This document shows positions 3,982 to 54,750 of a DNA stretch of 64,000 nt, piece by piece; the first letter of the stretch is position 1, and the number at the start of each line of letters is the position of its first letter. The stretch comes from Sinomonas atrocyanea. Lineage in GTDB: Bacteria; Actinomycetota; Actinomycetes; Actinomycetales; Micrococcaceae. The stretch lies in contig NZ_JAUSRH010000002.1 of NCBI RefSeq assembly GCF_030811715.1, positions 496,001 through 560,000 on the forward strand, in the 5' to 3' direction. Under the pieces are notes generated by a model. The model saw only the letters and a program-made list of their open reading frames with translations, made no database searches and had not been told where the DNA came from. The translations under genes were made by a program, and so were the position numbers.

Positions 3982-4740
3982 ATGGCAGAACGACTTCCCG
4001 TGGCAGTGCTGGGCGCGAACGGGCGCATGGGTTCAGAGGCCGTCCAAGCGGTCAGCTCGGCCGAGGACATGGAACTCGTCGCCGCGCTCGGCCGGGGTGA
4101 CTCCCTCGAGCGCCTCGTCGACTCCGGCGCCCGGTACGTCGTAGACCTCACCGTCCCCGACGCCACCGAGGCCAACGTCCGCTTCGCGGTCGAGCACGGT
4201 CTCCACGCCGTCGTGGGGACCACCGGCTGGAGCGAGGAGCGGCTCAGGTCGCTGCGCGAACTGCTCGCGGCCCATCCCGGGACCGGCGTGCTCATCGCAC
4301 CGAACTTCGCGCTGGGGTCCGTGCTCGCCTCGGCGTTCGCCGCCAAGGCGGCCCGCTACTTCGAGTCCGTCGAGATCGTCGAGCTCCACCACCCGGACAA
4401 GGTGGACGCCCCCTCCGGCACGGCGGTGCGCACCGCCCAGCTCATCGCCGCGGCCCGCAGCGACGCCGGGCTCGGCCCGTCCCCGGACGCGACCACCAAG
4501 GAGCTCGACGGAGCGCGGGGTGCCGACGTCGACGGCGTCCGCGTCCACGCCGTGCGGCTCCGCGGCCTCGTCGCCCACCAGGAGGTGCTCCTGGGCGGCC
4601 CGGGGGAGCAGCTGACCCTCCGGCACGACTCGTTCGACCGCGCCTCCTTCATGCCGGGAGTGCTCGTGGGCCTGCGCGAGGTCGCACGGCACCCTGGCCT
4701 CACCGTCGGCCTCGACGGCTACTTGGACCTCGGGCTGTGA
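3982..4740 (+). CDS. dapB: 4-hydroxy-tetrahydrodipicolinate reductase DapB
   Basis: NAD(P)H-dependent reductase of the diaminopimelate/lysine pathway. The 252-residue protein has the nucleotide-binding GxxGRMG motif (GANGRMG, residues 11-17), the ELHHPDK segment with catalytic His136/His137 and the nearby lysine, and PSGTA substrate contacts. The start has no ribosome-binding site but sits 6 nt after TAGGCT, so the mRNA is probably leaderless. The next gene starts on its stop codon (GTGA). dapA and dapF lie 3 kb and 17 kb downstream. Confidence 0.95.
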   Translation: MAERLPVAVLGANGRMGSEAVQAVSSAEDMELVAALGRGDSLERLVDSGARYVVDLTVPDATEANVRFAVEHGLHAVVGTTGWSEERLRSLRELLAAHPGTGVLIAPNFALGSVLASAFAAKAARYFESVEIVELHHPDKVDAPSGTAVRTAQLIAAARSDAGLGPSPDATTKELDGARGADVDGVRVHAVRLRGLVAHQEVLLGGPGEQLTLRHDSFDRASFMPGVLVGLREVARHPGLTVGLDGYLDLGL

Positions 4741-7792: not shown

Positions 7793-8701
7793 ATGGCAGA
7801 CGACATCCGCACGCGCACTTTCGGCACTCTCCTCACGGCAATGGTGACCCCGTTCACCGCCGACGGCGAGGTCGACTACGATGCGGCGGCGTCCCTGGCG
7901 GCCAAGCTCGTCGATGACGGCTGCGACGGCCTCGTCGTCACCGGCACCACGGGGGAGACGTCCACCCTGACGGACGAGGAAAACCTCGGCATGTTCAAGG
8001 CCGTCCTCGACGCTGTCGGCGGCCGCGCCAAGGTCATCGCGGGGACGGGCACGAACGACACCCGCCATTCGGTGAGCCTGTCGCGCCGCGCCGAGGCGCT
8101 CGGAGTCGACGGCCTCCTCCTCGTCACGCCCTACTACAACAAGCCCAGCCAGGCCGGCGTCCAAGCCCACTTCGAGACGGTCGCCTCTGCCACCGAGCTG
8201 CCCGTCATGCTCTACGACATCCCGGGCCGGTCGGGCATCCCGATCGCCCCCGAGACGATCCTCCGTCTGGCCGAGCACCCCCGCATCGCAGGCCTCAAGG
8301 ACGCTAAGGCCGACTTCGCCTCCGTGACGCGCGTGCTCGCCAAGACCGACCTGGCGGTGTACTCGGGCGACGACGGCCTGACCCTCCCATGGATGGCAGC
8401 CGGCGCCCTCGGCGTCGTCTCCGTCACGGCGCACGTCGCCACGAAGCAGTTCCGCTCGCTCGTCGACGCGGCGCTCGCGGGCGACTTCGCGGCCGCCCGC
8501 CAGGTCCACTTCGACCTCGACCCGGTGATCCGCGGGATCATGACCCGGGTCCAGGGCGCTGTCGCCGCCAAGCAGGTTCTCAAGTGGCAGGGTGTCCTGC
8601 CCAACTCCGTGGTCCGCCTCCCGCTCGTGGAGCCCGGCGACGCGGAGCTCGCCCTCATCCGCAACGATCTCGCCGAAGCCGGAATGGACTTCGGCGCCTA
8701 G
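7793..8701 (+). CDS. dapA: 4-hydroxy-tetrahydrodipicolinate synthase DapA
   Basis: Condenses pyruvate with aspartate semialdehyde, the committed step to diaminopimelate and lysine. The 302-residue TIM-barrel protein has GTTGETSTLTDEE, the YYNKPSQ tyrosine motif, and Lys169 in AGLKDAK as the Schiff-base lysine. The start ATG is 7 nt after a -10 box, with no ribosome-binding site. Ribonuclease J begins 12 nt downstream, an arrangement common in actinobacteria, so both probably share a transcript. Confidence 0.95.
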   Translation: MADDIRTRTFGTLLTAMVTPFTADGEVDYDAAASLAAKLVDDGCDGLVVTGTTGETSTLTDEENLGMFKAVLDAVGGRAKVIAGTGTNDTRHSVSLSRRAEALGVDGLLLVTPYYNKPSQAGVQAHFETVASATELPVMLYDIPGRSGIPIAPETILRLAEHPRIAGLKDAKADFASVTRVLAKTDLAVYSGDDGLTLPWMAAGALGVVSVTAHVATKQFRSLVDAALAGDFAAARQVHFDLDPVIRGIMTRVQGAVAAKQVLKWQGVLPNSVVRLPLVEPGDAELALIRNDLAEAGMDFGA

Positions 8702-8713
8702 GAGCAGCCCAGC

Positions 8714-10405
8714 ATGACCCAACGAGCCCTGTCCGTCCTCACCACTCCGCCCCCGCTCCCGTCGGGGACCCTGCGGATCGTCCCGCTCGGCGGGCTCGGT
8801 GAGGTCGGGCGGAACATGGCCGTCTTCGAGATCGAGGGCAAGCTCCTCGTCGTCGACTGCGGCGTCCTCTTCCCCGAAGAGACCCAGCCGGGCGTGGACC
8901 TGATCCTGCCCGACTTCTCCTACCTCGAAGGCCGCATCCAGGACATCCTCGCCGTCGTGCTCACCCACGGCCACGAGGACCACATCGGAGCCGTCCCGTA
9001 CCTCCTGCGCCACCGCCGGGACATCCCCCTCGTCGGGTCGCAGCTGACGCTCGCCCTCGTCGAGGCCAAGCTCGCCGAGCACCGCATCACTCCGGTGCTG
9101 CGGGTCGTCGAGGAGGGGCAGGTGCTGGACTTCGGTCCCTTCCAGACCGAGTTCGTGGCCGTCAACCACTCGATCCCGGACGCGCTCGCGGTCTTCATCC
9201 GCACCGCCGGGGGCACCGTCCTCCACACGGGCGACTTCAAGATGGACCAGCTCCCGCTCGACGGCCGCATCACGGACCTGCGCCACTTCGCCCGCCTCGG
9301 CGAGGAGGGCGTGGACCTGTTCATGGCGGACTCGACCAACGCGGACGTCCCCGGATTCACCACCGCTGAGAAGGAGATCGGCCCCACACTGGACCGGCTC
9401 TTCGGCCAGGCGCGCAAGCGGATCATCGTGGCCAGCTTCTCCTCGCACGTCCACCGCGTCCAGCAGGTGCTCGACGCCGCCCACCAGCACGGCCGCAAGG
9501 TTGCCTTCGTGGGCCGTTCGATGGTGCGGAACATGGGGATCGCGGCCAAGCTGGGCTACCTCGACGTGCCGCCGGGCATCCTCGTCGACATGAAGGCCAT
9601 CGACTCCATCCCCGACCACCGCCTCGTGCTGATGTCCACGGGATCCCAGGGCGAACCCATGGCCGCGCTCTCGCGCATGGCCAACGGCGACCACCGGGTC
9701 CAGGTCGGCGAGGGCGACACCGTGATCCTCGCCTCCTCGCTCATCCCGGGCAATGAGAACGCGGTCTTCCGCGTCATCAACGGCCTCCTCAAGCTCGGCG
9801 CGAACGTGATCCACAAGGGCATGGCCAAGGTCCACGTCTCCGGCCACGCTGCCGCGGGCGAGCTCCTCTACTGCTACAACATCGTTGAGCCGCTCAATGC
9901 CATGCCGGTGCACGGGGAGACCCGCCACCTCATCGCCAACGGCAACCTGGCCCTCGAGACGGGCATGGAGCCCGACAGCGTCATCCTCGGCGACAACGGG
10001 ACCGTGGTCGACCTCAAGGGCGGCGTCGCGAAGATCGTCGGGCAGGTCGAGGTCGGCTTCGTCTACGTCGACGGCAGCAGCGTCGGGGAGATCACGGACG
10101 TGGACCTCAAGGACCGCAGGATCCTGGGCGAGGAGGGCTTCATCTCGGTCATCGCCGTGGTGAACCGCTCGACGGGCAAGGTCGTGACCGGCCCCGAGAT
10201 CCACGCCCGCGGCGTCGCCGAGGACGACGCCGTGTTCGACGACATCATCCCCAAGATCAACGCGGCCCTCGAGGAGGCAATCCTCGCCAAGCCGGACCAC
10301 ACGGCCCACCAGCTCCAGCAGGTGGTGCGCCGGGTCATCGGCACCTGGGTGAGCCGCAAGCTGCGGCGCAAGCCCATGATCATCCCGGTGATCCTGGAGG
10401 CCTGA
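8714..10405 (+). CDS. rnj: Ribonuclease J
   Basis: A 563-residue metallo-beta-lactamase/beta-CASP nuclease for mRNA and rRNA processing (5'-exonuclease and endonuclease). The zinc motif THGHEDHIGAVPYLL starts near residue 83; further family signatures are GDFKMDQLP, DSTNADVPGFT and the beta-CASP segment around SGHAAAGELLYCYNIVEPLNAMPVHGE. The C-terminal domain and basic tail are present, so the length is normal. It follows dapA closely and is ended by a strong terminator. Confidence 0.94.
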   Translation: MTQRALSVLTTPPPLPSGTLRIVPLGGLGEVGRNMAVFEIEGKLLVVDCGVLFPEETQPGVDLILPDFSYLEGRIQDILAVVLTHGHEDHIGAVPYLLRHRRDIPLVGSQLTLALVEAKLAEHRITPVLRVVEEGQVLDFGPFQTEFVAVNHSIPDALAVFIRTAGGTVLHTGDFKMDQLPLDGRITDLRHFARLGEEGVDLFMADSTNADVPGFTTAEKEIGPTLDRLFGQARKRIIVASFSSHVHRVQQVLDAAHQHGRKVAFVGRSMVRNMGIAAKLGYLDVPPGILVDMKAIDSIPDHRLVLMSTGSQGEPMAALSRMANGDHRVQVGEGDTVILASSLIPGNENAVFRVINGLLKLGANVIHKGMAKVHVSGHAAAGELLYCYNIVEPLNAMPVHGETRHLIANGNLALETGMEPDSVILGDNGTVVDLKGGVAKIVGQVEVGFVYVDGSSVGEITDVDLKDRRILGEEGFISVIAVVNRSTGKVVTGPEIHARGVAEDDAVFDDIIPKINAALEEAILAKPDHTAHQLQQVVRRVIGTWVSRKLRRKPMIIPVILEA

Positions 10406-10428
10406 CGCCCCGCCCTCCGGCCGGAGAA

Positions 10429-10469
10429 GGCCGCCGCTCCCGTGGAAATCCGCGGGAGCGGCGGCCTTT
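10429..10469 (+). terminator. Intrinsic terminator after rnj
   Basis: A 14-bp perfect GC stem (10429-10442 with 10453-10466) encloses a 10-nt loop and is followed by TTT. It separates the dapA-rnj unit from ftsK. Confidence 0.9.
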
Positions 10470-10474
10470 CGCGG

Positions 10475-10480
10475 TACCGT
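10475..10480 (+). promoter_or_regulatory. -10 box for leaderless ftsK
   Basis: TACCGT ends 7 nt before the ATG at 10488. An in-frame GTG at 10479 would fall inside this box, which argues for the ATG start. Confidence 0.55.
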
Positions 10481-10487
10481 GGCGAAT

Positions 10488-13382
10488 ATGGCGACTCGTA
10501 CCTCTTCCACGCCAAAGGCCGGCACGTCCAAGACCAGACCCACCCGGACCACGGCGCCCGCGGCACGGGGGCGGTCGGGCGCGGGCGCGTCCCGGGCCAA
10601 GGCATCAGGCAAGGGGGGCACGTCGCCACGTGGCGTGACCGCGACGGACTCGGGGCAGCCGTGGGCGGCGCGCCTCATCGGCGGAACGTGGGGCGCCCTC
10701 GCACGCACCGTCGGCGGAGGCGTGCGCCGCATCGGGACCGATGTCAGCGACATCGACCCCGAGGAGCGCCGCGACGGCGCCGCGCTGTTCAACCTGGTCC
10801 TCGCCGTCTTCATCGCGACCTTCGCATGGTGGGGCTGGAAGGGCTGGTTCCCGGACGCGGTCTACGCGGTCGTCAACGGTACGTTCGGCTGGGTCTCGCT
10901 CCTGCTGCCGCTCATGCTCGCCGTGTGCGCGTTCCGGCTGTTCCGCAAGCCCGCCGACCACCGCGGCAACAACCGGGTCGGCATCGGCTTCCTGGTCATG
11001 ACGTTCGCCGCCACCGGGATCGCCGATGTCCTCGGGGGGCTGCCCTCCGCCGCCGCGGGCTTCGACGGGCTCCGGGCTGCCGGGGGCATGCTCGGCTTCC
11101 TCGCCGCATCCCTCCTCGCGGCCGTCCACCCCGCCATCCCGGTCATCGTCTACTCGGCGCTCGCGTTCGTCTCGGTCCTCATCGTCACGGCCACGCCGTT
11201 CGCCGCGATCCCGCGCCGGATCCGCGCTGCCTGGGAGCACCTCATGGGCCTCGACCTGACGCCCGAGGAGCAGGACGAGCACGACCGCAGCTACCTGTAC
11301 GACTCGGAGCGACGCGCCAAGGAGGCCGCCCGCGAGCGCCGCACGAAGAAGCGGCGGCTGTTCGGCAAGGACGGCGAGGACGCGCCCGAGCCCGGTGACG
11401 GCTTCGCCGGAGACGAGCCCTACGAGCGCGCCGTCGTCGACGATCCCGACGCGACTGACGCGACGGCGGGCCCAGCAGCAGGCCGGTCCCAGGCGGAGGC
11501 CGCCATCCAGAAGATCCGTGCGGCCCAGGGCCGCGGCAGCGAGCAGGGCGCGGACGGCAAGCCCGTGGAGGGTGCCACCGAGGCCATCCCGACGGTCGGG
11601 CTGCCGACCCCGAACGCGGCCCCGGCCGTCCACGTCCCCTCCACACCGGTGGCGCCAGCGCCGCCGCCCACCCCCATTCCCCAGCGCACCGAGCAGCTCC
11701 AGCTCTCGGGTGACGTCGCCTACACGCTGCCGTCCTCGGACTTCCTCGTCCAGGGCTCGGCACCGAAGGAGCGGACCGAGGCCAACGACGCGGTCGTCGC
11801 GGCGCTGACCAGCACGCTCACCCAGTTCAATGTGGACGCCGAGGTCACGGGCTTCTCCCGCGGTCCCACGGTGACCCGCTATGAGATCGAGCTCGCGCCG
11901 GGCACCAAGGTGGAGAAGGTCACGGCGCTGTCGAAGAACATCGCCTACGCCGTCGCGAGCTCCGACGTGCGCATCCTGAGCCCGATCCCCGGCAAGAGCG
12001 CCATCGGCATCGAGATCCCCAACACCGACCGCGAGACCGTGTCCCTCGGCGACGTCCTGCGGAGCCAGAACGCGCGCCGGACTGACCACCCCATGGTGAT
12101 GGGCGTGGGCAAGGACGTCGAGGGCGGATTCGTCGTCGCGAACCTCGCCAAGATGCCGCACCTGCTCGTCGCCGGCGCGACCGGCGCGGGAAAGTCCTCG
12201 TTCGTGAATTCGATGATCACCTCGATCCTTATGCGCTCGACGCCGGACGAGGTGCGCATGGTGATGGTCGACCCGAAGCGTGTGGAGCTCACGGCGTACG
12301 AGGGCGTCCCGCACCTCATCACCCCGATCATCACGAATCCCAAGAAGGCCGCCGAGGCCCTCCAATGGGTGGTCCGCGAGATGGACGCCCGCTACGACGA
12401 CCTGGCCAACTACGGGTTCAAGCACATCGACGACTTCAACAAGGCCGTCCGGGCGGGCAAGGTCGTCCCCCCGCCGGGCTCCGAGCGGAAGATCCGCGCC
12501 TACCCGTACCTGCTCGTCATCGTGGACGAGCTCGCGGACCTCATGATGGTCGCCCCCCGGGACGTCGAGGACTCCATCGTGCGCATCACCCAGCTCGCGC
12601 GCGCCGCGGGCATCCACCTTGTCCTCGCGACCCAGCGCCCCTCGGTCGATGTCGTCACAGGCCTCATCAAGGCCAACGTGCCCTCGCGCATGGCGTTCGC
12701 GACCTCCTCGGTCACCGACTCCCGCGTGGTCCTCGACCAGCCCGGCGCCGAGAAGCTGATCGGCCAGGGCGACGCGCTGTTCCTGCCGATGGGCGCCTCG
12801 AAGCCCATGCGCGTCCAGGGCGCCTGGGTCTCCGAGTCGGAGATCCACAAGGTGGTCGAGCACGTGAAGGGCCAGCTCCAGGTCACCTACCGCAACGACG
12901 TGGCCGCGGAGCCGGAGAAGAAGCAGATCGACGAGGAGATCGGGGACGACCTCGAGGTGCTGCTGCAGGCCACCGAACTCGTGGTCACGACCCAGTTCGG
13001 GTCGACGTCGATGCTCCAGCGCAAGCTGCGGGTCGGGTTCGCGAAGGCGGGCCGGCTCATGGACCTGCTCGAGAGCCGCGGCGTGGTCGGGCCGTCCGAG
13101 GGCTCCAAGGCACGCGACGTCCTCGTCAAGCCCGATGACCTGCCGGCCGTCCTGGCCGCGCTGCGCGGCCAGGACGCGCCGTCGTCGGCGTCCAGCGCGG
13201 CCGACGAGGCACTCGCCGACAACGCCAGCGCCAACCACCATCTGGGCCAGTACGAGAACGACTCGCCCTACGCTGAGGACGTCGTGGCCAGGGACCTGGA
13301 CGCGCGGCCGCAGGCGGTCGACTACCACGACGGTGACGACGACGAGGGCGGCGAAGACGCGTGGTCGCTGACCGGACGCTAG
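10488..13382 (+). CDS. ftsK: DNA translocase FtsK/SpoIIIE
   Basis: Pumps chromosomal DNA through the division septum. The 964-residue protein has four N-terminal transmembrane segments (about residues 95-245), a Pro/Ala-rich linker, and the RecA-like motor with Walker A (GATGAGKS, residues 563-570) and Walker B (YLLVIVDELADL). The C-terminal winged-helix gamma domain begins at QFGSTSMLQRKLRVGFAKAGR and would read polar DNA motifs. The start is the ATG behind TACCGT. Its TAG stop forms part of the pgsA -10 box. Confidence 0.95.
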   Translation: MATRTSSTPKAGTSKTRPTRTTAPAARGRSGAGASRAKASGKGGTSPRGVTATDSGQPWAARLIGGTWGALARTVGGGVRRIGTDVSDIDPEERRDGAALFNLVLAVFIATFAWWGWKGWFPDAVYAVVNGTFGWVSLLLPLMLAVCAFRLFRKPADHRGNNRVGIGFLVMTFAATGIADVLGGLPSAAAGFDGLRAAGGMLGFLAASLLAAVHPAIPVIVYSALAFVSVLIVTATPFAAIPRRIRAAWEHLMGLDLTPEEQDEHDRSYLYDSERRAKEAARERRTKKRRLFGKDGEDAPEPGDGFAGDEPYERAVVDDPDATDATAGPAAGRSQAEAAIQKIRAAQGRGSEQGADGKPVEGATEAIPTVGLPTPNAAPAVHVPSTPVAPAPPPTPIPQRTEQLQLSGDVAYTLPSSDFLVQGSAPKERTEANDAVVAALTSTLTQFNVDAEVTGFSRGPTVTRYEIELAPGTKVEKVTALSKNIAYAVASSDVRILSPIPGKSAIGIEIPNTDRETVSLGDVLRSQNARRTDHPMVMGVGKDVEGGFVVANLAKMPHLLVAGATGAGKSSFVNSMITSILMRSTPDEVRMVMVDPKRVELTAYEGVPHLITPIITNPKKAAEALQWVVREMDARYDDLANYGFKHIDDFNKAVRAGKVVPPPGSERKIRAYPYLLVIVDELADLMMVAPRDVEDSIVRITQLARAAGIHLVLATQRPSVDVVTGLIKANVPSRMAFATSSVTDSRVVLDQPGAEKLIGQGDALFLPMGASKPMRVQGAWVSESEIHKVVEHVKGQLQVTYRNDVAAEPEKKQIDEEIGDDLEVLLQATELVVTTQFGSTSMLQRKLRVGFAKAGRLMDLLESRGVVGPSEGSKARDVLVKPDDLPAVLAALRGQDAPSSASSAADEALADNASANHHLGQYENDSPYAEDVVARDLDARPQAVDYHDGDDDEGGEDAWSLTGR

Positions 13383-13385
13383 GCT
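13380..13385 (+). promoter_or_regulatory. -10 box for leaderless pgsA, made from the ftsK stop codon
   Basis: TAGGCT begins with the TAG stop of ftsK (13380-13382). A 6-nt spacer separates it from the pgsA GTG. Confidence 0.55.
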
Positions 13386-13391
13386 GAGACG

Positions 13392-13985
13392 GTGACCACC
13401 TCGCCGTCGGCGTCCCCCTCCCAGCTCTGGAATCTCCCGAACATCCTCACGATGGCGCGGATCGTCCTCGTGCCGTTCTTCATCTGGTCGCTCCTGGCCG
13501 ACGGCTCCGCGCACGGGCCGCTGCGCTGGGTGGCCTTCGCCCTCTTCGCCGTCGCGATCTACACCGACCAGCTCGACGGCTCGATCGCGCGCCGGCGCAA
13601 CCTCATCACCGACTTCGGCAAGATCGCCGACCCGATCGCGGACAAGCTCCTGACCGGGGCGGCGCTGGTCCTGCTCTCGGTGCTGGCGGAGCTGCCCTGG
13701 TGGATCACGGTGCTGATCCTCCTGCGCGAGTGGGGCATCACCGCCCTGCGCTTCGTCGTGATCCGCTACGGCGTCATGCCGGCCTCGCGCGGGGGCAAGC
13801 TCAAGACCGTGCTCCAGACGGTGGCGATCCTGCTCTACCTCTTCCCGCTGACCCCCGGGCTCGCCGTGCTCTCGGCCGTCGCCTTCTGGGTGATGCTCCT
13901 GGCCCTTGCCGTGACCGTGGTCACCGGAGCCGACTACGTCCTCAAGGCCGCGCGGCTGCGGGCGGCCGCGCAGAAGGAGCAGTGA
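13392..13985 (+). CDS. pgsA: CDP-diacylglycerol--glycerol-3-phosphate 3-phosphatidyltransferase
   Basis: Makes phosphatidylglycerol phosphate in the membrane. The 197-residue protein has the CDP-alcohol phosphotransferase signature in full: DQLDGSIARR, eight residues, then GKIADPIADK, with the three conserved aspartates. Four or more hydrophobic helices follow. The position between ftsK and cinA matches other actinobacteria. The GTG start is leaderless with respect to TAGGCT; the gene ends 4 nt before the cinA start. Confidence 0.92.
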   Translation: MTTSPSASPSQLWNLPNILTMARIVLVPFFIWSLLADGSAHGPLRWVAFALFAVAIYTDQLDGSIARRRNLITDFGKIADPIADKLLTGAALVLLSVLAELPWWITVLILLREWGITALRFVVIRYGVMPASRGGKLKTVLQTVAILLYLFPLTPGLAVLSAVAFWVMLLALAVTVVTGADYVLKAARLRAAAQKEQ

Positions 13986-22017: not shown

Positions 22018-22959
22018 ATGACCGTTCCGGCGACCTCGGCCCCCCACGTCCTCGCCTCCCTCGCAGGCCTTCCCTTCGCCAAGGGGCACGGCACCGGCAA
22101 CGACTTCGTGCTCGTTGCCGATCCCGACGGCGCGCTGCACCTCGGCGAGGCCGAGGCGGCCGCGCTCTGCGACCGGCACCAGGGCCTCGGCGCCGACGGC
22201 CTCATCCGCGCCATCCGCTCGCGCCGCCTGCCCGAGGGCGAGGCCGTCCTCGCCCAGGAGCCGGACGCCGAGTGGTTCATGGACTACCGCAACGCTGACG
22301 GATCCCTCTCGGAGATGTGCGGCAACGGCGTGCGCGTCTTCGTGGCCTTCCTGCTCGATGCCGGCCTCGTCCAGCTCGCGCCCGGCGAGGTCCTGCCCAT
22401 CGGGACGCGGGCCGGCGTGAAGCGCGTGGAGCGGCGAGAGGACGGCTTCGCCGTCGACATGGGCCCGTGGGCGTTCATCCATCCCGATCGTGCGGCCGCC
22501 GACGCGAGCGATGCGACCGTGACGGCCGTAGGCCTCGACGTCGCCCGGCCCGGCCTGAGCGTGAGCATGGGCAACCCGCACACCGTGGTGGCGCTCGCCG
22601 AACCGGGCGAGCTCGCCGGCCTCGGCCTCCACACGGCCCCGCTCGTCGATCCCATGCCGCCGCACGGGACCAACGTCGAGTTCGTGGTGCCCTCTGACCC
22701 GCTCGTGGCCTCGGGCGTGGGGAGCATCACCATGCGCGTGCACGAGCGCGGAGTGGGCGAGACGCAGTCCTGCGGCACCGGGGCGTGCGCGGCTGCGGTC
22801 GCCATCCGGCACTGGGCCGGTGCGGGCGCCCCCGACCGGTGGGCGGTCGCCGTCCCGGGCGGCACCGTCGGGGTGGCCTTCGTGCCGGGCACCGACGGGC
22901 GCGAGCACGTCGAGCTCTCCGGCCCCGCCGTCATCGTGGCGCACGGCACCCTCGCCTGA
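22018..22959 (+). CDS. dapF: Diaminopimelate epimerase DapF
   Basis: Interconverts LL- and meso-diaminopimelate for peptidoglycan and lysine. The 313-residue protein has both catalytic cysteines in their motifs ([10 protein letters not shown] and [13 protein letters not shown]), the substrate motif KGHGTGNDF, and SMGNPHTVV. An insertion around residues 63-80 is slightly longer than in enterobacterial enzymes. It is leaderless with respect to TAGGCT and ends 5 bp from a convergent gene. Confidence 0.95.
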
Positions 22960-47699: not shown

Positions 47700-48437
47700 A
47701 TGCTCCTGCGGGCAGTGCCGCTCGGTCACCCCGGGTCGGCGCTGCCCGCCGGCGTCTGCACCCCTGGCGAACTCGAACGGGCCGCGGCGATCCTCGGCGC
47801 GCAGCGCAGCCATGAGTTCGTCGCGGGCCGGCTCGCGCTGCGGTGCCTGGTCGCAGAGCTGCTCGGGGCGGACCCGCGGCTCGTGGTCCCCGTGTACCGC
47901 TGCCCCGCGTGCAGGCCGGGGGAGCACGGCGCCCCCGGCTTCGCGCTCGCCCGCGAGGTTCCGGGCACCGCGCACGACGACGGGACGCGGCTCGCGCTGC
48001 CCGTCACCGCGAGCATGTCCCGGGCCGGCGGGTGGGCCCTCCTGGCCGCCGAAGTCACCCCGTGGGAGCGCGAGGTCACCCCGTGGACGCGCGAAGTCAC
48101 CCCGTGTGAGTGCGAGGTCACCCCGTGTGAGTGCGAGATCGGGGCCACAGCGCCCCGGCTCGGCGTCGACCTGGCACGCGTCGCAGACTTCCGTGGCGCG
48201 ATCCCGGACGCCGCGTTCTCGGCGGCCGAGCGCCGTCGGGTGTCGGCAGCGGAAGATCCGCCCACGGAGGCGGCGCAGCTGTGGGTCCGCAAGGAGGCCC
48301 TCCTCAAGGCCCTGGGGACGGGCCTGCGCGTCCAACCCGCAGCGGTCAGTACCAGTGGCGACAGCAAGGTGGAAGACCTCGATGGGAAGGCGCTCGGGCT
48401 TCCGGCCGGCTTCGTCGCCGCTCTGGCACAGATCTGA
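47700..48437 (+). CDS. 4'-phosphopantetheinyl transferase-like protein with degenerate motifs and internal repeat
   Basis: A 245-residue Sfp/PPT-like protein that in principle would load phosphopantetheine on carrier domains, such as the Pls-type synthetase encoded just downstream on the other strand. The C-terminal WVRKEALLKALGTGLRV matches PPTases and GVD is present, but the acidic partner two residues on reads Ala (GVDLA instead of GVDxE) and the usual SH(S/T) reads MSRAGG. Residues 118-145 are EVTPW/C repeats from four 21-bp DNA units. It may be inactive or modified. Confidence 0.75.
   Translation: MLLRAVPLGHPGSALPAGVCTPGELERAAAILGAQRSHEFVAGRLALRCLVAELLGADPRLVVPVYRCPACRPGEHGAPGFALAREVPGTAHDDGTRLALPVTASMSRAGGWALLAAEVTPWEREVTPWTREVTPCECEVTPCECEIGATAPRLGVDLARVADFRGAIPDAAFSAAERRRVSAAEDPPTEAAQLWVRKEALLKALGTGLRVQPAAVSTSGDSKVEDLDGKALGLPAGFVAALAQI
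48051..48134 (+). repeat. Four tandem 21-bp units inside the PPTase-like gene
   Basis: Units begin at 48051, 48072, 48093 and 48114, each with the core GTCACCCCGTG; units 1/3 begin GAA and 2/4 begin GAG. They insert 28 residues between the core motifs without breaking the frame. A related GGTGACCCCGGG lies at 48456-48467, just past the gene. Confidence 0.9.
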
Positions 48438-48472: not shown

Positions 48473-49843
48473 CTAGGCCGGCAGCGGCGGCAGCGGGCCC
48501 TCGAACAGCCACGGGCGCAGGATCGCGGCGGCGTCGAACCCGGGTGCCCCGGCGCCCACGCGGCCGAGGAGCTCGAGGAAGTCGGCGGTCGAGGCGTTCC
48601 CGTGCCGGTACTCCTCCCCGAAGGCCCTCAGGGCGCGGAAGAACCTGTCCTCCCCGAGCGCGTTGCGCACCGCGTGCAGGGCGAGGGCGCCCCGCTTGTA
48701 CACGCGGTCGTCGAACATCATCGCGGGCCCCGGGGCGCCGATCACGAGATCCTGCTCCTGCCACGCCACGAGCTTCCAGGCCGCGGCAGCCCGCGAGGCC
48801 ACGGACCCCTGGCCCGCGTGCTCGCTCCAGAGCCACTCCGCGTAGCACGCGAAGCCCTCGTGGAGCCAGATGTCCTCCCACCGCCGGGCCGTCACCGAGT
48901 TGCCGAACCACTGGTGGGCGAGCTCGTGCGCGAGCAGCCGCTGCGACTCCCAGCTGCGGGTGATGTGGTTGCGCCCGACGATGGAGAGCGTCTGCGCCTC
49001 GAGCGGGATCTCGAGCTCGTCCTCGGTGACCACGACGGTGTAGTCCCGGAAGGGGTACGGCCCGAACAGGTCGGTGAACAGGGCGAGCATCGCCTGCTGG
49101 TCGCGCAGGCCGGCGAGTGCGCTCTCGCGCAGGGCTGGCGGCACGGCGGCGAACACCCCGACCGAGGGGTGCTCCCGTCGCGGCAGGCGCCCGAGCTCGA
49201 GCAGCTGGAACCGGCCGATCAGCAGCGTCGCGAGATAGGGCGCCATCGGCTCGTGGACCTCGTAGACCCAGGTCTCGCGGCTGGCCTTCCGCCGGTGCCC
49301 GACCACGAGGCCGTTCGACACGACGCGGTACCCGGCGTCCGCCGTGGCCGAGATCCGGAACGTGGCCTTCTGGCTGGGGTGGTCGTTGCACGGGAACCAG
49401 GTGGGCGCCCCGACTGGCTGCCCGGCGACGAGGACGCCGTCCTCGAGCTCCTCCCAGCCCACATCGCCCCACTCGCCGTCCGTGGGGCCCGGACTGCCCT
49501 CGTACCGGATCTCGAGGGAGAAGTCCCTGCCCGCGGGCACAGGCGTGGCCGGCGTGATGCGCAGCTCCTCCCCGCGCTGGACGGCCTTGGCCCTCGCGCC
49601 CTCGACCTGCACCTTGAGCACGCGGAGCCCGGCGAGGCTGAGGGTGATCGCCTCGAGGCGCTGGTTCGCGGTGGCGCGCAGGCGCGCCCTGCCCGCGAGG
49701 CGGTTGCTCGCGAGCTTGACCTCGAGGTCGAGGTCGTAGTGCGTGACCGTGTAGGCGGCGCTCCCGTGCCCCGGCGTGTAGGGATCGGGGAGCGCGGGGC
49801 GGCCGGGCGGCATAGGCAGGGCGATGTGATGGTCCTGTCTCAC
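48473..49843 (-). CDS. M1-family zinc aminopeptidase paired with the Pls-type synthetase
   Basis: A 456-residue M1 metallopeptidase: LLAHELAHQWFGNSVTARRWEDIWLHEGFACYAEWLW holds HExxH (HELAH) with the third zinc ligand Glu in LHEGF. The N-terminal beta-domain (YDLDLEVKLASNRLAGRARL) is normal; the protein is shorter than PepN (~850) because it lacks the C-terminal helical domains. Its GTG overlaps the Pls-type stop (GTGA), so synthesis is coupled. In epsilon-poly-lysine producers a zinc aminopeptidase degrades the polymer, I recall; a similar role is an inference. No signal peptide. Confidence 0.9.
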   Translation of the reverse strand: MRQDHHIALPMPPGRPALPDPYTPGHGSAAYTVTHYDLDLEVKLASNRLAGRARLRATANQRLEAITLSLAGLRVLKVQVEGARAKAVQRGEELRITPATPVPAGRDFSLEIRYEGSPGPTDGEWGDVGWEELEDGVLVAGQPVGAPTWFPCNDHPSQKATFRISATADAGYRVVSNGLVVGHRRKASRETWVYEVHEPMAPYLATLLIGRFQLLELGRLPRREHPSVGVFAAVPPALRESALAGLRDQQAMLALFTDLFGPYPFRDYTVVVTEDELEIPLEAQTLSIVGRNHITRSWESQRLLAHELAHQWFGNSVTARRWEDIWLHEGFACYAEWLWSEHAGQGSVASRAAAAWKLVAWQEQDLVIGAPGPAMMFDDRVYKRGALALHAVRNALGEDRFFRALRAFGEEYRHGNASTADFLELLGRVGAGAPGFDAAAILRPWLFEGPLPPLPA

Positions 49844-52800
49844 CTGGTGGGTGCCTCCGGTTCCTTCCACGGCACCACCGGGTTGCCCCGCCAGTACGTT
49901 CCCGCGGGCACGTGCTCGCCCCGCATGACGAGCGACGCCGGCCCTACCGTTGCGCCGTCGTCGATCCTCGCGCCGGGCAGGACGACGCCGTGCGGCCCGA
50001 GCGTCGCTCCCTCGCCCAGGGTGGCGGTGTCGATGGCCATGATGCGGTCGTGGAAGAGGTGCGTCTGCACGACGCAGCCCCGGTTCACGGTCGAGCTCCG
50101 CCCGAGCGAGACGAGGTCCGCCTCGGGCAGCCAGTAGCTCTCGCACCAGGCTCCGGAGCCGATCTTCGCCCCGAGGGACCGCAGCCACCACACGAGGGCC
50201 GGGGTCCCGGCCGCCGCCCGCGCGAACCACGGGGCGGCGACCATCTCCACGAATGTGTCCTGGACCTCGTTGCGCCACACGAACGAGCTCCACAGCGGGT
50301 GCTCGCCGGCGCGGATCCTGCCCACGAAGAGCCACTTCGCGGCCGTGGCAGACGCCGCCGCGACGGCCCCGGCCGCAAGCATGACGGCCCCGCACAGCAG
50401 TGCCGCGGGCAGGTACCCCCACGCGGCGGCGAGCCAGTCGAGGGCTGCGAACACGGCGACGGCGATCGCCACCGTGAGCACGACGGGCACCGCGCGGCAC
50501 AGCTCCCACAGCGCACGCGCGACCTTGAGGCGGGGTGCCGGCCGGAACGTCCGCCCGGCGTCCGTCGAGATCGCGGTGCGGCGGAGGCGGACCGGCGGGC
50601 TCCCGAGCCAGGACGAGCCCGGCTTCGCCTTCTTCGGCGCGGCGGAGAGGACGGCGACGAGGCCGTCCTTCGGCACGGACCGGCCCGCCGCCGTCATCCC
50701 CGAGTTGCCGAGGAAGGCGCGCTTGCCGACCTTGGCTGGGGCGATCTTCAGCCACCCGCCGCCGAGTTCGTAGCTGGCCACCATGGTGTCGTCGGCGAGG
50801 AAGGCCCCGTCGGCGACCGTGGTCATCGACGGCAGCAGCAGCACGGTGGACGCCTCGACGTCCTTGCCGACCTTCGCGCCCAGGATCCGCAGCCAGACGG
50901 GGGTGAAGAGGCTCGCATAGATCGGGAACAGGACCTCCCGGGCCAGGTCGAGGACCCGTTCGGTGGCCCAGACCTGCCAGCCGGTCCGCGAGCGGACGCG
51001 GTGGTACCCGGCGGAGAGCCCGAGGCCCAGCAGGCGGGTGGTGACGGCGATGAGGACGAGGTTGAGGAGGAACCACGCGGCCGCCGCGAGGGGCGTCGCC
51101 GCGAGCAGCGGCACGAGGGCGGCGTGGAGCGAGCCGTGCCCGCGCGCCGCCCAGGCGAGCACGACGCCGGCCGCCGCGGCCGAGGCGAACGGGACGAGCG
51201 CCAGGAGCGCCGAGCCCGCCGCGAAGGCCGCGATCCACATCCCCTCGCGCGCCCGCGATCGGCGCACGGCGGCCTCGGGCCAGCCCGGCTTCGCCTTGCC
51301 CACCCGGCTCGCGGGGGATCCGGCCACCCGCAGGCCCGCCTTGACCTTGCCCGACACGGCCGAGCCCGGGTCGACGACCGCGCCGGCGCCGATGCGCGCC
51401 CCGGGCAGCAGGGTGCTCCGGGCGCCGACGGCCGCGCCGGCCCCGATGCTGATGCCGCCGAGGTGGACCCAGTCGCCGTCGATCCACCAGCCCGACAGGT
51501 CGACCTCCGGCTCCACGGACGCGCCGGGCCCGACGGAGAGCATGCCGGTGACCGGCGGGACGGAGTGCAGCACGGCGTCCCGGCCGATCTTCGCCCCGAG
51601 GGCCCGCGCGTAGTACGGGACCCACGGCGCGCTCGCGAGGCTCACGGCCTGCGCGAGGTCGGCGATCTGCTCGGCGAGCCAGAGCCTCAGGTGCACCGAG
51701 CCTGCCCGCGGGTACCGGCCGGGGGAGACCCCGCGCAGGAGGAGGCGTGCGGCTGCCACTGAGATGGCCATCCTGCCCCAGGGGCTGACGAACACGAGCC
51801 AGGAGGCGGCGACCCACCACCAGGAGAGCGTCGGGGCCGCGGCGAGTCCCGCGGTGGCCGCGAGGATGTTGTTCGCGGCCGCGAGGTAGGTCAGCCACCG
51901 CATGCCCACGAGGATGAACAGCGGGACGCCCATGAGCGTCTGGAGCCACTGGGTCCGCGCGGGCGTGGGCCGCACGGCGCGGACCGGCCCGGGCTGGGCG
52001 GAGGCCGTCCCGACCACGGCGTCGATGAGGGCGCCGACCCTGGGGTGGGCGTACACGTCGGCGACGGTGACGGTGGGGTAGCGCCGGCGCAGCGCGGAGA
52101 CGAGCTGGGCGGCCGCGAGGGAGCCGCCGCCGTGGGCGAAGAAGTCGGCATCGAGCCCCGGAGCTGCGGTGCCGAGGACGGCACCCCACTGCTCCACGAC
52201 CCACGCGGCGTCCTCGGGGAGCTCGAGGTCGGGACCCTCCTCGTTGTCCTGCCCCGGCAGCGGCCACGGGAGGGCCTTGCGGTCCACCTTGCCGCTCGTT
52301 GTGGTCGGGAGGGAGTCGACGACGGCGAGCACCGGCACGAGCGCGGCCGGCAGCTCGCGCGCGAGCCGCTTCCGGTACGCGGCGACGTCCGGCGCGGCCC
52401 CGCGGGCCGGCGCGAGGTACCCGACCAGGATCTGGTTCCCGGCCGCCGTCGTGCGCACCGCGGCGGCCGCGGCGGCGACGCCGGGGAGCGCCTGCAGCGC
52501 GGCGTCGACCTCGCCGAGCTCGATCCGGCGGCCGCCGAGCTTGACCTGCTCGTCCGCCCGGCCCTGGAAGGAGAGGCCCTCGGGCTCGAACCGCACGAGG
52601 TCGCCCGAGCGGTAGGCCCGGTCCCATCCGAGCGCTGGGACGGCGGCGTACTTCTCGGCGTCCTTGGCGGGGTCGAGGTAGCTGGCCAGGCCCACGCCGC
52701 CGATGATGAGCTCGCCCACCTCGCCGGCGGCCACGGGCACGCCGGCGGCGTCGACGACCGCGAGGTCCCAGCCGTCGAGGGGGAGCCCGATCCGCACCGG

Positions 52801-53757
52801 CCCCGTGCCGTCCAGGAGCGCCGCGCATGCCACGACCGTCGCCTCGGTGGGCCCGTACGTGTTCCACACCTCCCGGCCCTCCACGGCGAGCCGCGCGGCG
52901 AGCTCCGGGGGGCAGGCCTCGCCGCCGAAGATGAGCAGGCGCACGTTCTCGAGCGCCTCGGCGGGCCACAGGGCGGCCAGGGTCGGGACGGTCGAGACGA
53001 CCGTGATCCCGCGCTGGACGAGCCACGGGCCGAGGTCCATGCCGGTGCGCACGAGCGCCCGCGGGGCGGGCACGAGGCACGCCCCGTGCCGCCACGCGAG
53101 CCACATCTCCTCGCACGAGGCATCGAAGGCGACGGAGAGGCCGGCCAGCACCCGGTCGTCTGGCCCGATCGGCTCGCCCTGCAGGAAGAGCCGGGCCTCG
53201 GCGTCGACGAACGCCGCGGCCGAGCGGTGGCTGACCGCGACCCCCTTGGGCGTGCCGGTCGAACCGGACGTGAAGATGATCCAGCAGTCGTCCCCGGGCC
53301 CGGGCAGCCTGGGCTCCGGGAAGGGCTTGGGGCGGTCCTTGGCGACCACCATGGACCCGCCGCGGCGCAGGATCCCGGCCACCTTCGCCTCGCTGAAGAC
53401 GAGCTTCGCCCGCTCGTCCGGGTCGTCGGCATCGACCGGCACGTAGGCGGCCCCCACCAGCATCGTCGCGAGGATCGCCACGTACAGCTCGGCGGTGCCC
53501 GAGGGGATGCGGATGCCCACGCGGTCCCCGGCTCCCAGGCCCGCGGCGTGCAGCCTGCGTCCCATCGCCCGGACCTCCTCGAGCAGCTCCGCATAGGAGA
53601 GGGAGGTCGACCCGTCGTCGAGCGCGGGGGCCTCCGGGAAGGCCTCCGCGCTCGCGGTGAGGATGTCGACGAGGGTGCGGGGATCCGGTGCCCGGCCCGC
53701 ATTCCTGAGCTGGGCCGCGGCCCCGGCCCGGGGCAGGGGCTCGTGCGTCTCGGTCAC
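49840..53757 (-). CDS. Pls/PosA-type membrane non-ribosomal peptide synthetase (poly-amino-acid synthetase)
   Basis: A 1305-residue protein with the architecture of epsilon-poly-L-lysine synthetase (~1319 residues). Residues 30-500: adenylation domain (FTSGSTGTPKG at 162-172; Asp212, which would bind the substrate amino group; NTYGPTEAT; YRSGDLVRF; catalytic Lys490 in TSGKVDRK). About 515-585: carrier domain with Ser546 in AHGGGSLA. From about 605: six transmembrane helices in three pairs alternating with three soluble domains with hexapeptide/left-handed-helix repeats. There is no condensation or thioesterase domain. It is preceded 27 nt away by an oxidoreductase gene. The monomer cannot be deduced. 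Confidence 0.9.
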   Translation of the reverse strand: MTETHEPLPRAGAAAQLRNAGRAPDPRTLVDILTASAEAFPEAPALDDGSTSLSYAELLEEVRAMGRRLHAAGLGAGDRVGIRIPSGTAELYVAILATMLVGAAYVPVDADDPDERAKLVFSEAKVAGILRRGGSMVVAKDRPKPFPEPRLPGPGDDCWIIFTSGSTGTPKGVAVSHRSAAAFVDAEARLFLQGEPIGPDDRVLAGLSVAFDASCEEMWLAWRHGACLVPAPRALVRTGMDLGPWLVQRGITVVSTVPTLAALWPAEALENVRLLIFGGEACPPELAARLAVEGREVWNTYGPTEATVVACAALLDGTGPVRIGLPLDGWDLAVVDAAGVPVAAGEVGELIIGGVGLASYLDPAKDAEKYAAVPALGWDRAYRSGDLVRFEPEGLSFQGRADEQVKLGGRRIELGEVDAALQALPGVAAAAAAVRTTAAGNQILVGYLAPARGAAPDVAAYRKRLARELPAALVPVLAVVDSLPTTTSGKVDRKALPWPLPGQDNEEGPDLELPEDAAWVVEQWGAVLGTAAPGLDADFFAHGGGSLAAAQLVSALRRRYPTVTVADVYAHPRVGALIDAVVGTASAQPGPVRAVRPTPARTQWLQTLMGVPLFILVGMRWLTYLAAANNILAATAGLAAAPTLSWWWVAASWLVFVSPWGRMAISVAAARLLLRGVSPGRYPRAGSVHLRLWLAEQIADLAQAVSLASAPWVPYYARALGAKIGRDAVLHSVPPVTGMLSVGPGASVEPEVDLSGWWIDGDWVHLGGISIGAGAAVGARSTLLPGARIGAGAVVDPGSAVSGKVKAGLRVAGSPASRVGKAKPGWPEAAVRRSRAREGMWIAAFAAGSALLALVPFASAAAAGVVLAWAARGHGSLHAALVPLLAATPLAAAAWFLLNLVLIAVTTRLLGLGLSAGYHRVRSRTGWQVWATERVLDLAREVLFPIYASLFTPVWLRILGAKVGKDVEASTVLLLPSMTTVADGAFLADDTMVASYELGGGWLKIAPAKVGKRAFLGNSGMTAAGRSVPKDGLVAVLSAAPKKAKPGSSWLGSPPVRLRRTAISTDAGRTFRPAPRLKVARALWELCRAVPVVLTVAIAVAVFAALDWLAAAWGYLPAALLCGAVMLAAGAVAAASATAAKWLFVGRIRAGEHPLWSSFVWRNEVQDTFVEMVAAPWFARAAAGTPALVWWLRSLGAKIGSGAWCESYWLPEADLVSLGRSSTVNRGCVVQTHLFHDRIMAIDTATLGEGATLGPHGVVLPGARIDDGATVGPASLVMRGEHVPAGTYWRGNPVVPWKEPEAPTR

Positions 53758-53784
53758 TGCCGTGCCTTCTTCACTGGTGGGCGG

Positions 53785-54750
53785 CTACGGGACGAGGAGG
53801 ACCTTGCCGGTGGTGGCGCGGCCCTCGAGCGCGGTGTGCGCGGCGGCGGCCTCCCACAGGGGGAACTGCGCCCCGATGCGGACGTTGAGCGAGCCGTCGG
53901 CCACCGCCCCGAAGACCTCGGAGGAGCGCCAGCGCCGCTCGGCGGCATTGAGCAGGTGGTGGGCGAGCGTGGGACGGGTCAGGAAGAGCGAGCCGCCGGC
54001 GTTGAGCCGCTGGGGGTCCACCGGGGGCACCGGGCCGGACGCCGCGCCGAACAGCACGAGCATCCCGCGGACGCGCAGGCTCTTCAGGGAGCCGTCGAAC
54101 GTGTCCCGCCCCACGCCGTCGTACACGACGTCGACGCCGGCCCCGCCGGTGAGCTCCCGGACCTGCTCGGGGAAGCCGTCGTAGCGGATCACGTGGTCCG
54201 CGCCGGCGCCGGAGGCCAGTTCGGCCTTGGCGTCGTTGGAGACCGTGGTGATGACGCGGGCGCCCTTGGCCTTGAGCAGCTGGATCATGAGCAGGCCCAC
54301 TCCGCCGGCGCCGGCGTGGAGCAGCACCGTCTGTCCGGGCTCGACCCGGAACGTCGAGTTGACGAGGTAGTGGGCCGTCATCCCCTGGAGGGGGAGCGCG
54401 GCTGCGGTGAGCAGGTCCACACCCTCCGGGATCGGGAGGGCCTTGTCCGCGTCGATGAGCGCGTACTCCGCGTAGGTCGCGGTCCCCTCGGCGGTCGCCA
54501 CCCGGTCGCCCTCGGCGAAGTCGGCGACCCCCTCGCCCACGGCTGCCACGACGCCCGAGGCCTCCGCGCCCGGGGTGAAGGGGAAGGACATCGTGTAGAG
54601 GCCCTGGCGCTGGTACGTCTCGATGAAGTTGATGCCGGCCGCGGCGACGCGGACCAGGATCTGGCCCGGGCCGGGCTCCGGCCTGGCGATCTCGGTGGGC
54701 TTGAGGACTTCCGGGCCCCCGGGGGCCGTGGCGACGATGGCGTTGATCAT
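53785..54750 (-). CDS. Quinone oxidoreductase-type NAD(P)H-dependent MDR family enzyme
   Basis: A 321-residue medium-chain reductase of the zinc-free quinone oxidoreductase type. It has AAAGINFIETYQRQGLY, PGAEASGVVAAVG, AAALPLQGMTAHYLV and the nucleotide-binding HAGAGGVGLLMIQLLKAKGARV. CAGGAG precedes the ATG. It may share a transcript with the Pls-type gene (27-nt gap), but a role in that pathway is not evident. Confidence 0.9.
   Translation of the reverse strand: MINAIVATAPGGPEVLKPTEIARPEPGPGQILVRVAAAGINFIETYQRQGLYTMSFPFTPGAEASGVVAAVGEGVADFAEGDRVATAEGTATYAEYALIDADKALPIPEGVDLLTAAALPLQGMTAHYLVNSTFRVEPGQTVLLHAGAGGVGLLMIQLLKAKGARVITTVSNDAKAELASGAGADHVIRYDGFPEQVRELTGGAGVDVVYDGVGRDTFDGSLKSLRVRGMLVLFGAASGPVPPVDPQRLNAGGSLFLTRPTLAHHLLNAAERRWRSSEVFGAVADGSLNVRIGAQFPLWEAAAAHTALEGRATTGKVLLVP

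Follow-up and report, generated by a model that had tools for sequence, protein, structure and literature searches.

Which polymer, and which set of genes, is represented by a locus where a gene for a large Pls-type synthetase ends inside the start of a peptidase gene? We analysed such a locus in a 64,000-nucleotide stretch of Sinomonas atrocyanea DNA, here called the window. A preliminary description had suggested that a Pls-type synthetase, for lysine or another diamino acid, is paired with an M1 enzyme that degrades its polymer. That pairing remains the best reading, and the choice of substrate can be sharpened to L-lysine by the identity of the adenylation pocket with that of 7wew. Judging from the sequence, we consider it highly probable (about 0.88) that the locus is a pls-pldII unit for ε-poly-L-lysine with a linked activating enzyme. 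The pls-pldII pair is an already described system, whose publication the preliminary description did not mention; our additions are the link to a transferase, the block-wise absence of the genes and a second synthetase. The features are listed in Table 1.

Table 1. Features of the pls locus and of the second synthetase locus. Coordinates are positions in the 64-kb window, except in the last two rows; (+) and (-) give the strand.
Feature	Position	Strand	Remarks
4'-Phosphopantetheinyl transferase (ACPS superfamily)	47700..48437	+	Convergent with peptidase; probable activator of Pls carrier
In-frame 21-base (heptapeptide) tandem repeat in transferase gene, about 4 copies	48050..48137	+	
M1 metallopeptidase, PldII-like, 456 aa	48473..49843	-	GTG start at 49843; H306, E307, H310, E329, E282, Y382
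GTGA overlap of peptidase GTG start and Pls TGA stop	49840..49843	-	Read directly in the sequence
Pls-type ε-poly-L-lysine synthetase (putative)	49840..53757	-	1305 aa, GTG start; Pfam, TIGR02353, pocket versus 7wew
C3 hexapeptide/β-helix domain, about residues 1195-1297	49867..50175	-	Alignment and model; limits approximate; holds Q1231, H1233
C2 hexapeptide/β-helix domain, about residues 960-1064	50566..50880	-	Model; limits approximate
C1 hexapeptide/β-helix domain, about residues 720-829	51271..51600	-	Pfam and model; limits approximate
Carrier (PP-binding) domain, residues 519-581	52015..52203	-	Pfam
Adenylation domain, about residues 27-496	52270..53679	-	Pocket D212 A213 E216 S255 I276 G278 T300 V308 V309 K490
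Quinone oxidoreductase-like gene (QOR)	53785..54750	-	27 bases ahead of pls; not part of the unit
Second Pls-family synthetase, 1369 aa	L079 (G000:C4:55000-74900) 9466-13575	-	TIGR02353 669.4 bits
dat - pls2 - transferase cluster	L079 8690-14965	-	

The synthetase contains the Pfam domains AMP-binding (residues 34-358), AMP-binding_C, PP-binding (519-581) and Hexapep, while no condensation or thioesterase family was matched at E ≤ 0.001. Residues 605-1294 match the NCBIfam model TIGR02353, “Pls/PosA family NRPS”, with 695.1 bits (cut-off 423.1). The structure predicted for residues 590-1305 from an alignment of 69 relatives (mean pLDDT 91.6, pTM 0.91) contains three β-helix-like domains, each with a long helix pair ahead of it. 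An adenylation domain, a carrier domain and three consecutive C-terminal domains, each with its helix pair, in a chain that lacks condensation and thioesterase domains, place the protein among the Pls enzymes, and the 1305-residue synthetase with all its parts is thereby recovered as it had been described. Of these six helices, a crude hydropathy scan flagged all but one, which belongs to the first pair; it also flagged a stretch within the adenylation domain that is surely no membrane helix. The Rfam search of the window gave no matches at gathering level.

Almost all of the best 50 of 475 Foldseek matches to the model are hexapeptide acyltransferases, such as 8vrm, CysE and maltose O-acetyltransferase, and a profile search agrees. 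The TM-scores of these best 50, taken by query length, are as low as 0.09-0.17, so the similarity concerns individual parts rather than the complete model. Hexapeptide acyltransferases are trimers with active sites between the subunits, and by analogy the three copies in one Pls chain may form an internal trimer; our literature search for Pls C-terminal domains as a β-helix trimer gave nothing relevant among the papers listed. Q1231 and H1233 in the third β-helix domain are invariant in all 69 aligned rows.

The pocket around Asp212, for which a comparison with known Pls enzymes had been suggested, was aligned to 7wew, an entry titled “Epsilon-poly-L-lysine synthase” in the PDB table and presumably from S. 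albulus. It reads DAESIGTVVK and is identical to 7wew at all ten positions, and 326 of 475 aligned residues are identical over the adenylation domain. The ten-position scheme, which we take to be that of gramicidin synthetase, agrees with the PosA positions quoted in the available part of PMC10522769. According to the same part of that paper, position 2 is occupied by Ala in enzymes for lysine, by Met in the one for ornithine and by Phe in those for diaminopropionate and diaminobutyrate. Since the pocket is identical to that of 7wew, including the Ala at position 2, L-lysine is the likely substrate. In a quick tree with a midpoint root, 42 rows with lysine-like pockets are placed apart from 4 rows with Phe pockets; the tree contains no characterised full-length Pls, and the nearest stand-in is L080, whose adenylation domain is 92% identical to 7wew. 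The window also contains dapB (3982-4740), dapA (7793-8701) and dapF (22018-22959), which are unlinked to pls, as was stated before; they were rejected as a linked supply, the nearest of them, dapF, ending about 25 kb away.

The peptidase gene matches Peptidase_M1 and Peptidase_M1_N in Pfam. The pls gene ends in ...CCACCAGGTGA, where the GTG is the start of the M1 gene, so that the GTGA overlap reported earlier can be read directly. An exact four-base NTGA overlap of the M1 start with the Pls stop is present in 66 of 96 M1 genes linked to pls, counting that of the window (36 GTGA, 26 ATGA and 4 TTGA); the first possible start overlaps pls in another way in 20 of the others and does not overlap it in 10. 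The six residues given for the peptidase in Table 1 are unchanged in all 96 genes. M1 aminopeptidases usually carry a GxMEN motif; at this position, all 96 proteins have P, followed by L, V or I, then E, and then A, S or N. In S. albulus PldII, Glu281 is described as an amino-acid-binding residue in the accessible text of PMC9223678. Membership of the M1 family, an intact zinc site and a gene coupled to pls mark the protein as PldII-like. Two further M1 genes in the same genome, with frames of 921 and 882 codons, match Peptidase_M1 with 200.5 and 189.5 bits, as compared to 98.7 bits for the pls-linked gene. The best solved relative by sequence is the M1 zinc metalloprotease 6a8z/6iff, a chain of 474 residues, although it matches with 169.9 bits only.

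This arrangement corresponds to that of S. albulus, in which pls and the adjacent pldII overlap by 4 bp within one operon (PMC4361855, in part), and in which the two genes are translationally coupled and pldII is needed for self-protection (PMC9223678, in part). PldII is there reported to be endo-type, yet to start from the amino end. The window shares with S. albulus the architecture, the lysine pocket, the gene for an M1-type degrading peptidase immediately after pls and the 4-base overlap; it differs in that pls is placed 27 bases behind QOR and that a transferase gene is located beyond the peptidase gene. Furthermore, the available sections of PMC9223678 describe S. albulus PldII as located outside the membrane, whereas the hydropathy scan of the window M1 found no 19-residue stretch above 1.6 and thus no predicted membrane segment, a point that may count against the assignment. 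In Corynebacterium variabile, of another genus than here, Pls and a peptidase gene also lie side by side in an operon, and the pockets of Pls from cheese and skin coryneforms are identical or highly similar to those of confirmed Pls; the C. variabile operon yielded its product through heterologous expression in S. coelicolor, and Pls homologs are listed from Arthrobacter, Micrococcus and other coryneform genera (PMC8117764, in part).

The locus occupies a fixed position in the genus. The gene order is pheS-pheT-transferase, followed on the other strand by M1-Pls-QOR, and then argC. A match that exceeds the cut-off of the Pls family is present in 13 of the 14 genomes searched from the genus, and 12 of these have the full lysine pocket; that of G013 is partial because the gene reads in three frames in the assembly (L064, 9008-12920), due to a sequencing error or decay. 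The transferase is situated between pheT and M1 in 12 of the 13 genomes, mostly close to both. In the thirteenth, G006, the Pls contig stops shortly behind M1, and the transferase adjoins pheT on another contig. Beside this transferase, there is a second, partial M1 match (L195, G006:C54, 66-287; residues 380-455, 49% identical), which is unexplained, as a full M1 follows pls on the other contig.

In G009, the one genome of the genus that lacks Pls (L194, 10865-11948), M1 and the transferase are absent as well; QOR and the end of pheT lie 121 bases apart there, and QOR, argC and pheST are kept. The only ACPS-family match in this genome is in a 121-codon frame elsewhere, and M1 matches there show 29-31% identity at 54-58 bits. 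No Pls-type M1 was found in any of the 11 Pls-less relatives from the genus and family that were searched (best match 77.5 bits, against 658.7 bits in G006 as positive control), and none of the 11 has a transferase match at the slot. QOR lies within about 230 bases of pheT in seven of them; in two of the other four the gap is about 1.1-1.2 kb, in another it is about 4.3 kb, and the last has no QOR match in the fetched stretch. One of the two shorter gaps belongs to G015, which contains pls remnants between QOR and pheT in two pieces that are 67% and 75% identical (L199, 8790-9511). The range of 48473-54750 originally given for the unit holds for the Pls and M1 genes inside it, but it takes in QOR (53785-54750) and omits the transferase gene (47700-48437), which is probably part of the unit. 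QOR was rejected as a member, since it is kept where the pls unit is absent.

The transferase probably activates the Pls carrier, as suggested by its position and by the gene content of the genome. Three genes of the ACPS family are present: the window gene, another next to the second Pls, and a third in a frame of 119 codons, a size that resembles AcpS. There are four carrier-domain matches, of which two are in the two Pls-type proteins; the other two could be further clients of the window transferase. The fast evolution of the transferase argues against the link, as does its separation from M1, which is 1.1 kb in G011 and 3.7 kb in G002. Weak transferase matches of 45-79 bits were obtained in the fetched stretches of L049, L060, L061, L063, L070, L071, L107, L112, L129 and L140, and no transferase scored in the fetched Streptomyces loci in a similarity search with only the two transferases of this genome. 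A brief literature search gave no link between a phosphopantetheinyl transferase and Pls among the papers listed, and we make no claim of priority for it. The copy number of the 21-base repeat in the gene varies between species of the genus, and its unit recurs at three further sites in the genome; the repeat might tune activation.

To the extent that these sequences allow a scheme to be drawn, the transferase would arm the Pls carrier domain, and the adenylation domain would activate L-lysine and load it onto the carrier. The three β-helix domains, held at the membrane by the three helix pairs, would then add lysine stepwise via its ε-amino group. The finished ε-poly-lysine would leave the cell, and the translationally coupled M1 peptidase would degrade the polymer and so protect the producer.

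The unit could be correctly assigned and nevertheless be silent or decaying in this strain, which is compatible with our preferred explanation and which we consider rather unlikely. C. variabile, which carries such a gene, made no polymer in culture according to the part of PMC8117764 at hand, and the three frames of pls in G013, the remnants in G015 and the absence of the gene from the slot in other relatives also speak for this view. However, the gene in the window is intact, and its dN/dS ratios against 6 of the 13 same-genus orthologs are 0.10-0.17 (1023 codons compared for that of L064). The corresponding values are 0.16-0.23 for M1, 0.36-0.43 for the transferase and 0.08-0.15 for pheT. 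By this measure, Pls and M1 are under purifying selection, and the transferase is under looser selection than either.

We compared 116 loci, 36 of which were taken from relatives by family-model similarity (several from one genome) and 80 of which, all with organism names, were chosen by similarity to 7wew. The latter are the best 80 of at least 592, a choice that favours lysine pockets. Together with the window and 7wew, this gave 118 pocket rows, with DAESIGTVVK in 106, DAESIGTVIK in three, DFECLSVVTK in two, and DFEYLGTVTK and DFEYNGTVTK in one each; one row is partial (L064) and four lack an alignable adenylation domain. An M1 match, defined as a tblastn match to the window M1 at E ≤ 1e-5 on the same strand as Pls, was found at 94 of the 104 fetched DAESIGTVVK loci (95 of 105 with the window), at distances of -66 to 209 bases from the Pls ORF in all except L101, in which this ORF is interrupted. 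Among the ten loci without a match, L082, L123 and L125 are cut off at a contig edge, and no more than about 0.6 kb of sequence remains in L130. The other six (L086, L089, L090, L096, L109 and L150) have room for the gene; together with L130, this makes seven lysine-pocket loci that continue beyond the Pls end and gave no M1 match, so the peptidase is not obligatory. None of the seven rows with another complete pocket has an M1 match, and because three of them, with DAESIGTVIK, differ at one position only, the M1 linkage is not simply a marker of lysine.

In the same tree, which comprises 46 rows, the window groups with Micrococcaceae Pls within a set of 29 rows that all have M1 beside them, and the named neighbours of its Pls are Arthrobacter and Pseudarthrobacter. 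The M1 label changes twice on this tree, against a mean of 11.6 after shuffling, a clustering that near-copies ease. In a class-wide search, 30 of 148 genomes, own genome included, had a match at E ≤ 1e-100, and among 14 named control genomes, only Corynebacterium glutamicum exceeded the TIGR02353 cut-off. L089, L090, L096, L109 and L150 represent a Kitasatospora-type Pls group with the lysine pocket and no adjoining M1 match. K. aureofaciens CPD02 contains two Pls genes of this type, also with the lysine pocket and without an adjoining M1 match.

The adjacency of Pls and M1 is more than chance, because it recurs at 94 of 104 loci with the same pocket and because of the low dN/dS of Pls. It is very unlikely that the M1 enzyme is an ordinary aminopeptidase that happens to lie beside pls. 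In favour of that view, its zinc site does not differ from the one common to M1 peptidases, the sequence holds no feature that would prove cleavage of a polymer, and M1 is missing at some lysine-pocket loci. However, the adjacency and the overlap recur across the actinobacterial loci fetched, the Pls-type M1 is absent from all 11 Pls-less relatives searched, the stretch aligned to GxMEN deviates in all 96 proteins, and the S. albulus counterpart degrades the polymer, as stated in the parts of PMC9223678 and PMC4361855 available.

A second Pls-family synthetase is encoded elsewhere in the genome, with the pocket DFECLSVVTK and thus Phe at position 2. It is flanked by a diaminobutyrate transaminase gene, dat (TIGR00709, 469.9 bits, cut-off 401.6), and by a transferase gene whose product resembles PptT (214 bits, below the model cut-off of 365). 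Upstream are homoserine dehydrogenase-like and aspartate-kinase-like genes, both below the model cut-offs. The order dat-Pls2-transferase is repeated in G005, with a dat that is 93% identical, as the only one among the 14 same-genus genomes searched. Since dat, along with ask, is named among the genes of poly-diaminobutyrate contexts in the accessible portion of PMC8117764, the product of this Phe-pocket synthetase beside dat is likely poly-diaminobutyrate. The Pls-family synthetases with the pockets DFEYLGTVTK (L074 in G001) and DFEYNGTVTK (L075 in G044) have neither a dat match nor a same-strand M1, and L075 has a weak M1 match of 45 bits on the opposite strand.

The least likely alternative is that the synthetase in the window polymerises another basic amino acid, such as ornithine, diaminobutyrate or β-lysine: the family includes such enzymes, and PosA, the δ-poly-L-ornithine synthetase of Acinetobacter baumannii, has the same architecture as the window Pls and takes ornithine with a pocket of a similar general kind (PMC10522769, in part), but position 2 in the window is Ala instead of the Met of PosA or the Phe of the diaminopropionate and diaminobutyrate enzymes, all ten positions equal those of 7wew, and the genome has a separate Phe-pocket synthetase that adjoins dat.

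Returning to ε-poly-L-lysine as the product in the window, a broader proposal can be made tentatively, at somewhat less than even odds: pls, pldII and the dedicated transferase would constitute one three-gene polymer module in the genus that has its set place between pheST and QOR-argC and is retained or lost as a whole, and the strain would be able to make two polycations, poly-lysine and poly-diaminobutyrate, each with its own transferase.

These results add a well-supported ε-poly-lysine locus in a genus of the Micrococcaceae. One such gene was silent in its own host, as reported in a section of PMC8117764, and co-expression of the transferase may help to reveal the product from genes of this kind. 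The second synthetase makes it possible to compare two polycation pathways directly within the same cell. The locus is near-universal in the genus (13 of 14 relatives in addition to the own genome), which suggests a steady role rather than that of a rare antibiotic.
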